Shown: positions 30,561 to 52,600 of the stretch, in pieces
Layout: every line of letters starts with the position of its first letter
How positions within the stretch are numbered: the stretch's first letter is position 1
Source: Planctomyces sp.
Lineage (GTDB): Bacteria > Planctomycetota > Planctomycetia > Planctomycetales > Planctomycetaceae
DNA length: 56,400 bases
NCBI GenBank assembly: GCA_013822855.1
Contig: PNLE01000004.1
Location: forward strand, 1 to 56,400
Reading direction: 5' to 3'
Notes under the pieces: model-generated
What the model was told of the DNA's origin: nothing
The model's database searches: none
Seen by the model: the letters and a program-made list of their open reading frames with translations, nothing else
Position numbers and translations under genes: made by a program

Positions 30561-30929
30561 CTAAATCAGGTTGGTGGAGATCTTGTGTCGGAAGGCGATC
30601 AGCATTCTTGAAACCTCGTCGAAACTTGTTTGCGGTCTCCGGCAGTCGCTTTCTTTGATGTATCCCAGTTGTAATGCGACTTCACAGTGCGAGTCGAGTT
30701 CGGCGAGCGATCCGATGGCGATCTGCAGGAAATGAAGCAGTGATCGTGAGTTGCCGTAAGCCTTTCCTTCCGCGATGTTCGCCGAAACTGAAATCGCCGC
30801 TCTTCGAATCTGGTTGGTCAATCCATATTGTTCATGCCGGGGGAACGACTCGGTAATCTGATAGCACTCCCTCGCGATCTCGATCGCCTTTCTCCAAAAG
30901 ATCAGATCCCGGTGATCACCGAACGTCAT
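30561..30929 (-). CDS. four-helix-bundle protein (S23/23S rRNA IVP-like) inside the nuo operon
   Basis: 122 residues with the family pattern: an N-terminal DLIFWRKAIEIARECYQIT, then FPRHEQYGLTNQIRRAAISVSANIAEGKAYGNSRSLLHFLQIAIGSLAELDSHCEVALQLGY. These proteins form pentamers of four-helix bundles; the family is known from intervening sequences in 23S rRNA genes and as free-standing genes, and its function is unknown. Start ATG 30929 has GGAG seven bases upstream; the preceding TTG is less likely. It is in the same direction as nuo, between nuoF and nuoG, and must be transcribed with them unless it has its own promoter. Nothing links it to complex I biochemically. Confidence 0.9.
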   Translation of the reverse strand: MTFGDHRDLIFWRKAIEIARECYQITESFPRHEQYGLTNQIRRAAISVSANIAEGKAYGNSRSLLHFLQIAIGSLAELDSHCEVALQLGYIKESDCRRPQTSFDEVSRMLIAFRHKISTNLI

Positions 30930-31011
30930 CAAACATCTCCGGTCATCATGGTGTCTGGGCCATTCGTCCAGAAATCTGGCTTCTCACCTTCTCCCCTTTT
31001 TTCCTCATGAA

Positions 31012-37661: not shown

Positions 37662-38303
37662 TCAAACCGGCTTGAAGCAGTGTTGGATCTCATGCTGATG
37701 CTCGAGCAGCCAATCGATGGAGGGCTCGTGGTTCATCGCTTTGGCGATGGCCTTCGTGGTCGCCCGGCGGTGGGTGTCGAAGAGGATGTTGTGGTCGATC
37801 TCGACTTCCGTCACGCTGGGATCGAGCCAGACCGAGACGATGATTCCCAAATCGTTCGCTTTCTCCTTGGGGATGTCGCCCCGGCGGACGGCATCCAGGA
37901 CGCCGTTGGCGATGGCGGCCTGCACGGTTCCCATGAGGATGTTGGTGTAGGCCTCGCTCTTGACGGTCACCTTGCTGACCATGAGCGTCGCGGGCCGCAC
38001 CTGCACATCGCAATTGAGGATCGCGAAGACGCGTGAGTGCCCCTTGATCTGGTCGCCCAGAAGATTGGCCATGGCGTAGCCGACGGGGCCGTCGAGTTCA
38101 CCAATCACCACCTCAGGCTCAGCGGCCGACCAGGCGGGTTCCGCCTCCACCAGGGCTTCCCCCGTCCGCATGACAATCCGGCTGGAAGCTGGTGCCGCGA
38201 CAGGTGCCGCCGCTGTTTTCTTGGTCACCGTTTTCGCTGCAACCGCAGCGGGAGCGGATTTGTTCGGCGCGGTCTTTTTGGGGGCGGCTTTCTTTTTGGC
38301 CAT
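37662..38303 (-). CDS. formaldehyde-activating enzyme (Fae) homologue with histone-like N-terminal tail
   Basis: 213 residues. Residues ~45-195 align with Fae, which joins formaldehyde to tetrahydromethanopterin: TGEALVEAE, GYAMANLLGDQIKGHSRVFAILNCDVQVRPATLMVSKVTVKS (cf. LLAV-x-APN-x5-P-x-T-hMV-x-KV-T) and IPKEKANDLGIIVSVWLDPS, then HRRATTKAIAKAMNHEPS. Where Fae has the catalytic His of VAHIDLIIG, this protein reads AEPEVVIG, so that His appears to be Glu62. It may be a non-canonical Fae paralogue, not the formaldehyde enzyme itself. Residues 1-40 are a Lys/Ala/Pro-rich tail (AKKKAAPKKTAPNKSAPAA) like the H1-like protein in this window. No other H4MPT pathway gene is adjacent. Confidence 0.75.
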   Translation of the reverse strand: MAKKKAAPKKTAPNKSAPAAVAAKTVTKKTAAAPVAAPASSRIVMRTGEALVEAEPAWSAAEPEVVIGELDGPVGYAMANLLGDQIKGHSRVFAILNCDVQVRPATLMVSKVTVKSEAYTNILMGTVQAAIANGVLDAVRRGDIPKEKANDLGIIVSVWLDPSVTEVEIDHNILFDTHRRATTKAIAKAMNHEPSIDWLLEHQHEIQHCFKPV

Positions 38304-51736: not shown

Positions 51737-52600
51737 TCACTCCACCCGCCGACGAATCACGCGTTGGAAATGCAGCTCCACTTCTCGGTCGACGACGCGG
51801 CGGACGCCTTCCAGCAGGCATTGCGGTTCGTGGTCGCTTTCGCCTTGGCGTTTGATATCGGCCAGGGGCGTGCCCGGCGGCACCGTGAAGGTGCTCTGGT
51901 GGATGATCTGGTTGCCCGCGTCGAGTTCCGGAACGATGAAGTGGACCGTCGCGCCGAAGGTCAGCATGCGGCGGGCGTAGGCGTCTTCATAGGGGTGGAA
52001 GCCGGGGAACGGCGGCAATAGGCCGTGGTGCAGATTGATGATCCGCCCCGCGAACCGCCAGCAGACATGTGGCGGCAAGACCCGCATATAGCGAGCCAGA
52101 AGTATATAGTCGACGCAGGATTCATCGAGGACCTGAATGAAGCGATTGTAGTCCGGCTCTCCCTTGGGATCGCCGATGTTCACGAAGGGGGTATCGAACT
52201 GTTCGGCGACGCCGCGGCAGGCCTCGCGGTTGCCGATCATCACAGCGGCTTCGGCCTTCAGGCGGCCGTCGCGGATGGCGCGGAGGATCGCCAGGGCCGG
52301 TTCCGCCCGGTAGGTCGTGCAGATGGCCAGACGCGGCGGGGCGGGGCGCTCGTCCCGGCTCCAGACGCGGATGCCGAGCTGCTTCAGTTCGCCGATCTGC
52401 CGCATGGCTTCACGGAGTTTCACGACCGAGGCGCTGTCGCCGGGCCATTCGATGCGGAGGTGCATGGCGAAGAGACGTTCGGCGTCGTGGTCGAACATCT
52501 GGATTTCATGGATGTTCGCACCGGCGCCGGTCACATGGTGAACGATCGGATCGGCGAGGCCGACATTGTCGGGTCCGACGGCGGTGATGACGACTTGCAT
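51737..52600 (-). CDS. purU: formyltetrahydrofolate deformylase
   Basis: 287 residues. An N-terminal ACT domain (VVITAVGPDNVGLADPIVHHVTGAGANIHEIQMFD) and a formyltransferase-fold C-terminus are the PurU arrangement. Catalytic Asn/His/Asp are visible: INLHHGLLPPFPG (Asn and His) and VPELDAGNQIIHQ (Asp). It releases formate from 10-formyl-THF, balancing one-carbon units for purine synthesis. The H-G rather than the more common H-S after the catalytic His is a modest variation. Start ATG 52600, no clear ribosome site. Confidence 0.9.
   Translation of the reverse strand: MQVVITAVGPDNVGLADPIVHHVTGAGANIHEIQMFDHDAERLFAMHLRIEWPGDSASVVKLREAMRQIGELKQLGIRVWSRDERPAPPRLAICTTYRAEPALAILRAIRDGRLKAEAAVMIGNREACRGVAEQFDTPFVNIGDPKGEPDYNRFIQVLDESCVDYILLARYMRVLPPHVCWRFAGRIINLHHGLLPPFPGFHPYEDAYARRMLTFGATVHFIVPELDAGNQIIHQSTFTVPPGTPLADIKRQGESDHEPQCLLEGVRRVVDREVELHFQRVIRRRVE

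Follow-up and report, generated by a model that had tools for sequence, protein, structure and literature searches.

An extra member of the formaldehyde-activating enzyme (Fae) family, encoded in the 56,400-nucleotide stretch of planctomycete DNA analysed here (the window), belongs to a clade in which the histidine presumed to be catalytic in Fae has given way throughout to a glutamate, and which in planctomycetes is found only alongside the H4MPT pathway. We tentatively suggest, at a probability of roughly 0.4, that this protein is a Fae3-like paralogue with a remodelled pocket, and that its part in the H4MPT network is an auxiliary step of C1 transfer and not the bulk activation of formaldehyde. 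Fae paralogues lacking an assigned function are already known, and the roles guessed for such extra Fae-like proteins span sensing, regulation and folate-linked C1 transfer (PMC11748545, PMC5023235, PMC3728764); what is added here is the clade-wide glutamate, the pathway linkage, the apparent transfer between phyla and a variant with an N-terminal tail. The combination of a clade-wide swap at the proposed catalytic residue, co-occurrence with H4MPT genes and inter-phylum transfer brings the question of these extra proteins within reach of experiments on one protein and a handful of point mutants.

The gene and its fold

The features under discussion are as follows.

37662..38303, (-) strand: Glu-type Fae paralogue, whole gene (213 aa; stop codon 37662-37664)
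38181..38303, (-) strand: Lys/Ala/Pro-rich tail, predicted disordered, residues 1-41 (pLDDT, composition, orthologue comparison)
37665..38168, (-) strand: Fae core domain, residues 46-213 (Pfam residues 47-210; model match to 1y5y)
38112..38120, (-) strand: Glu-Pro-Glu, residues 62-64, replacing canonical His-Ile-Asp (alignments; 129/129 clade sequences EPE)

The protein is a member of the Fae superfamily (PF08714) by both full-length profile match and fold. The Fae homology claimed in an earlier note, made from the DNA sequence, is confirmed by the Pfam profile, which covers residues 47-210, nearly its whole length, at 201 bits (cut-off 27); the NCBIfam model one_C_fae is passed narrowly, by about 3 bits (121.3 against a cut-off of 118.05). 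An AlphaFold2 model built from 45 window and locus sequences is mostly confident over the core, with a weak stretch at about residues 81-100, and this core matches Methylorubrum Fae 1y5y with a Z of 22.1 and an rmsd of 2.3 over 155 residues (1y60 also gives Z ~22), unrelated folds coming next in the structure search at Z ~10. A wrong start codon is ruled out by MAKKK and MPKKK starts that recur in relatives.

Glutamate in the histidine column

Glu62 (codon 38118-38120) occupies the column of the active-site histidine of Methylorubrum Fae, which is residue 22 when 1y5y is numbered from its Met and which we take to be His17 in the enzyme's own numbering, the proposed catalytic residue of Fae; no paper pairing Fae with His17 was found in open-access text. 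The same placement comes from HMMER against 1y5y, from hhalign and from a MAFFT alignment in which 83 Glu-type sequences were set against 26 canonical planctomycete ones; this agreement across the gapless stretch from Glu62 to the conserved Ile-Gly (67-68) rules out a misaligned column. The earlier assignment of Glu62 to the histidine position therefore stands, and there is no His in the active-site column.

Canonical planctomycete Fae has further invariant positions at which the Glu-type has settled on another residue; numbered as in 1y5y from its Met, these include Q79Y, Q82I, F84M, A87V, G117S, F119W and Y135R, a pattern that looks like remodelling and not decay. Purifying selection on the Glu-type core is strong and matches the constraint on canonical Fae: within the genus the core is 96% identical, with third codon positions ~45% identical and a dN of ~0.03, the same as that of canonical Fae.

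The clade and its spread

In species genomes, one scan turned up 80 loci (290 candidates) with 75-96% core identity, spread over planctomycetes and gammaproteobacterial methanotrophs. The 184 collected sequences comprise 129 with Glu-Pro-Glu, 47 with His-Ile-Asp, 6 with Met-Pro-Glu, one with His-Ile-Asn and one that is unreadable, and all 129 sequences of the window protein's clade carry Glu-Pro-Glu. On a maximum-likelihood tree, a quick build whose many weak inner branches make its finer branching unreliable, the Glu-type forms one branch (SH-aLRT 98) with the Met-type as its sister, and the two together split from the His-type with a support of 100. The window protein lies within the Glu-type clade, both by EPE at residues 62-64 and by its place inside the branch. 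Lacking the active-site His and falling outside the His-type branch, it is not a canonical Fae (Fae1), as the earlier note had held; nor is it a Met-type Fae2, since it has Glu, not Met, in the His column and belongs to the sister branch. The clade may correspond to the Fae3-like proteins of the literature, such as those encoded by MEALZ_RS07105 and METUNv2_520523, to which it is likened by description only.

Several individual loci deserve mention. Two adjacent Glu-type genes in opposite directions represent a local duplication (L173/L176, G092:C1:4263951-4265067). One copy is split across two frames (L175/L177, G100:C16:26662-27151) and elsewhere a 3′ fragment lies beside an intact copy (L174/L178, G121:C1:9822676-9824318), each being either a decaying or broken copy or a sequencing error. 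A very divergent Fae-like protein with a His-Ile-Asn motif and a very long branch, encoded on a Burkholderia multivorans plasmid (L158:2698-3438), possibly represents another Fae-like group.

Both Planctomycetia and Methylococcales commonly carry the clade; in the latter, 45/101 genomes have a Glu-type-scoring hit. Glu-type identity between Planctomycetes and Methylococcales is 65-89% (median 73%) and that among the planctomycetes tested is 71%, whereas canonical Fae from the same genomes shows 60% between phyla and 79% within; on the tree, the Methylococcales Glu-type sequences are nested in the planctomycete part, mixed with some planctomycete sequences. Since the Glu-type, unlike canonical Fae, is as similar between phyla as within them, transfer is the simple reading, and the gene appears to have crossed between Planctomycetes and Methylococcales, in either direction. 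One further Glu-type gene sits on a conjugative Methylobacterium plasmid and adjoins glnT, glxC-like and FMN-binding glutamate-synthase genes, which read as an N-methylglutamate (methylamine) set.

Linkage to the H4MPT pathway

In a phylum-wide sample of 195 genomes, the 33 with a Fae-family hit are exactly the 33 with Mch (methenyl-H4MPT cyclohydrolase), and the Glu-type is present in 16 of these 33 Mch-positive genomes and in none of the 162 Mch-negative ones (P ~1e-14, kinship ignored). Fae and Mch again coincide in the same 105 of 109 genomes of the class, ~63 of which hold the Glu-type by a hand count, which took second hits with the score and length expected and added two genomes where the Glu-type is the sole Fae hit. 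The window's own genome conforms to this pattern: the canonical fae that the earlier note suggested looking for is found on another contig (C133:2572-3045) and is His-type, with the motif Ala-His-Ile-Asp, and a single Mch copy lies on C143. The Glu-type shares only 33-39% identity with the canonical copy of the same genome. Replacement of canonical Fae by the Glu-type was considered and set aside, as it would concern only G060 and G113, drafts listed as 99% complete that have Mch and the Glu-type and no canonical Fae hit, and two in 105 is what assembly gaps could give.

The co-occurrence is notable in organisms that mostly have no recognisable methanol dehydrogenase. A PQQ alcohol dehydrogenase scores over the family cut-off in 1 of the 109 class genomes, as against ~63 with the Glu-type, and a type III glutamine synthetase in only 7; thus, neither methanol oxidation nor methylamine use, as modes of growth, explains the planctomycete Glu-type.

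The immediate neighbours of the paralogue in the window are purQ, the nuo operon and a TPR protein; purQ is convergent, with 8 bases between its end and the stop codon of the Fae gene, and just one further genome of the genus shows purQ beside the Glu-type gene. The earlier note described the gene as separated from other H4MPT genes in the window; separated it is, canonical fae and mch being on other contigs, but no other H4MPT gene was recognised in the window itself. ORF clustering around 87 Glu-type loci revealed no widely conserved neighbour, and operon context was accordingly rejected as a clue to function. Two other genes in the window may be recorded. A gene 13 kb from the Fae paralogue (51740-52600, (-) strand) encodes a formyl-transferase domain with an N-terminal ACT domain and reads as the folate C1 enzyme formyl-H4F deformylase, PurU; a 23S rRNA-intervening-sequence-type protein (30564-30932, (-) strand; PF05635, 117 bits) is encoded inside the nuo operon, between nuoF-like and nuoG-like genes.

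The N-terminal tail

Residues 1-45 of the window protein include 10 Lys/Arg, 15 Ala and 5 Pro and are free of acidic residues; disorder is predicted for residues 1-40 (pLDDT <50), so that the 40-residue Lys/Ala/Pro-rich tail of the earlier note is indeed present. Searched across the assembly, the strict MAKKK...KK start pattern turns up a single time, so such a start is no general habit of this genome. Among 98 distinct Glu-type proteins, a Lys-rich start is present in 35 (13-45 residues, of which 5-13 are basic and 0-2 acidic), all of them in planctomycetes and mostly shorter than that of the window protein, whose genus has the longest; 59 are tailless, with a plain 7-residue MS[QED]RIVM-like start before the core, and the tailless proteins include that of a near relative outside the genus, L035 (MSQASGRIVM). 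The tail state changes ~5 times on the tree, gain and loss being indistinguishable and the state of L052 probably miscoded, and core conservation is the same in tailed and tailless proteins. The tail exists, and some members preserve its basic character, but it is not a defining feature of the clade. As a key to function it fares poorly: the earlier note named absence from orthologues as a refutation, and most orthologues do lack it. Although 35 orthologues keep a Lys-rich version, its absence from 59/98 weakens the idea of tail-based sensing.

What the Glu-type protein may do

In the reading that we favour, the Glu-type protein would retain a pocket, equated from the sequence with that of canonical Fae, for formaldehyde or a tetrahydropterin C1 carrier, and Glu62 would act there as an acid/base or as a ligand contact. 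Its task could then be an auxiliary transfer of C1 units within the H4MPT network, such as passing them between H4MPT and folate-bound or N-methyl-derived donors, while the cell's canonical Fae handles the bulk condensation of formaldehyde. A Lys-rich tail would be an optional tether to an anionic partner, such as nucleic acid or a polyglutamate-bearing cofactor, outside the core mechanism. The invariant EPE, the other fixed columns, the low dN, the co-occurrence with Mch and the presence of canonical Fae in the same genome all point in this direction, as do the methylamine-type context of the plasmid copy and the behaviour of Methyloversatilis fae3, which goes up 11.7-fold on methylamine and has been proposed as a C1 shuttle linking H4F and H4MPT (PMC5023235). 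Against it count the lack of a conserved operon context, the rarity of methylamine genes in planctomycetes, and the fact that fae3 deletions in Methyloversatilis (PMC5023235) and Methylotuvimicrobium (PMC11748545) cause no growth defect, a result compatible with any role that is minor or conditional. A bolder version, which we regard as speculative and on balance unlikely, makes the Glu-type a separate H4MPT-network enzyme with an undescribed Glu-for-His reaction, for instance one in which H4MPT exchanges C1 units with folate- or N-methyl-derived carriers; the enzyme would have moved between Planctomycetes and methanotrophs, and in some planctomycetes its histone-like tail would anchor it to an anionic partner.

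The earlier note, from the possible binding of the tail to DNA or another anionic partner, hinted at regulation or formaldehyde sensing rather than catalysis. Loss of the His does not imply loss of catalysis, given that the Glu is invariant (129/129), the core is constrained like that of canonical Fae and the clade keeps company with H4MPT genes; sensing itself stays a live but secondary possibility. A sensor or regulator of the C1 pool would bind H4MPT, methylene-H4MPT or formaldehyde without turnover and signal to a partner, its tail, where present, contacting nucleic acid. Such a role has been suggested for Fae-like proteins (PMC3728764, PMC11748545) and would suit the clade-wide loss of the proposed catalytic His, the stand-alone gene and the basic disordered tail of 35/98 orthologues, but an ionisable Glu in every sequence is needless for pure ligand binding, and with no DNA-binding domain, no tail in most orthologues and no conserved regulatory neighbour, we hold it to be a rather unlikely, if serious, contender.

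The plainest reading is that of a Fae isozyme, Glu62 functionally replacing His in the condensation of formaldehyde with H4MPT, perhaps at another pH, substrate level or growth phase. The shared fold, the narrowly passed NCBIfam equivalog cut-off and the strict link to Mch agree with it, and so would the two drafts with Mch and the Glu-type and no canonical Fae hit, were it not that two missing hits in 105 genomes could be assembly gaps. Yet many canonical fixed positions are replaced, the similarity to the same-genome canonical copy is low, and the methanotroph Methylotuvimicrobium fae3, likened to the Glu-type by description only, did not complement a Methylorubrum fae null (PMC11748545), which leaves the isozyme doubtful. 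That the histone-like tail is instead the main function, in a nucleoid-associated or DNA-protecting protein whose Fae core holds or scavenges formaldehyde near DNA, is hard to credit: the tail is basic, disordered and, by the strict start pattern, unique in the genome, but 59/98 orthologues, near relative L035 included, do without it, the core is conserved independently of it, and its state changes repeatedly (~5 times) on the tree. Auxiliary C1 transfer in the H4MPT network remains our preferred reading.

Relation to known Fae proteins

Canonical Fae (Fae1) of Methylorubrum extorquens (PDB 1y5y, 1y60; TIGR03126) shares with the window protein its fold, a full-length alignment and the link to H4MPT genes; the window protein differs in being only 28-29% identical, in having Glu-Pro-Glu for His-Ile-Asp with many other fixed positions changed, and in falling on a separate branch. 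Fae2 of Methylobacterium aquaticum 22A, here taken as the sole Fae homologue found on plasmid pMaq22A_1p, which carries the published fae2 (PMC7356819), is a Met-type protein that likewise lacks the active-site His, shares the Pro-Glu after it and belongs to the sister branch, but its His column holds Met, not Glu, and where the two proteins match they are ~39% identical. The window protein has a Lys-rich tail, whereas none was seen among proteobacterial Glu-type proteins. Fae3 of Methyloversatilis universalis FAM5 and Methylotuvimicrobium alcaliphilum 20ZR, compared by description, is like the Glu-type a distant Fae paralogue beside Fae1, and the methylamine induction of the FAM5 gene (PMC5023235) would fit the methylamine-type context of the one plasmid-borne Glu-type gene.
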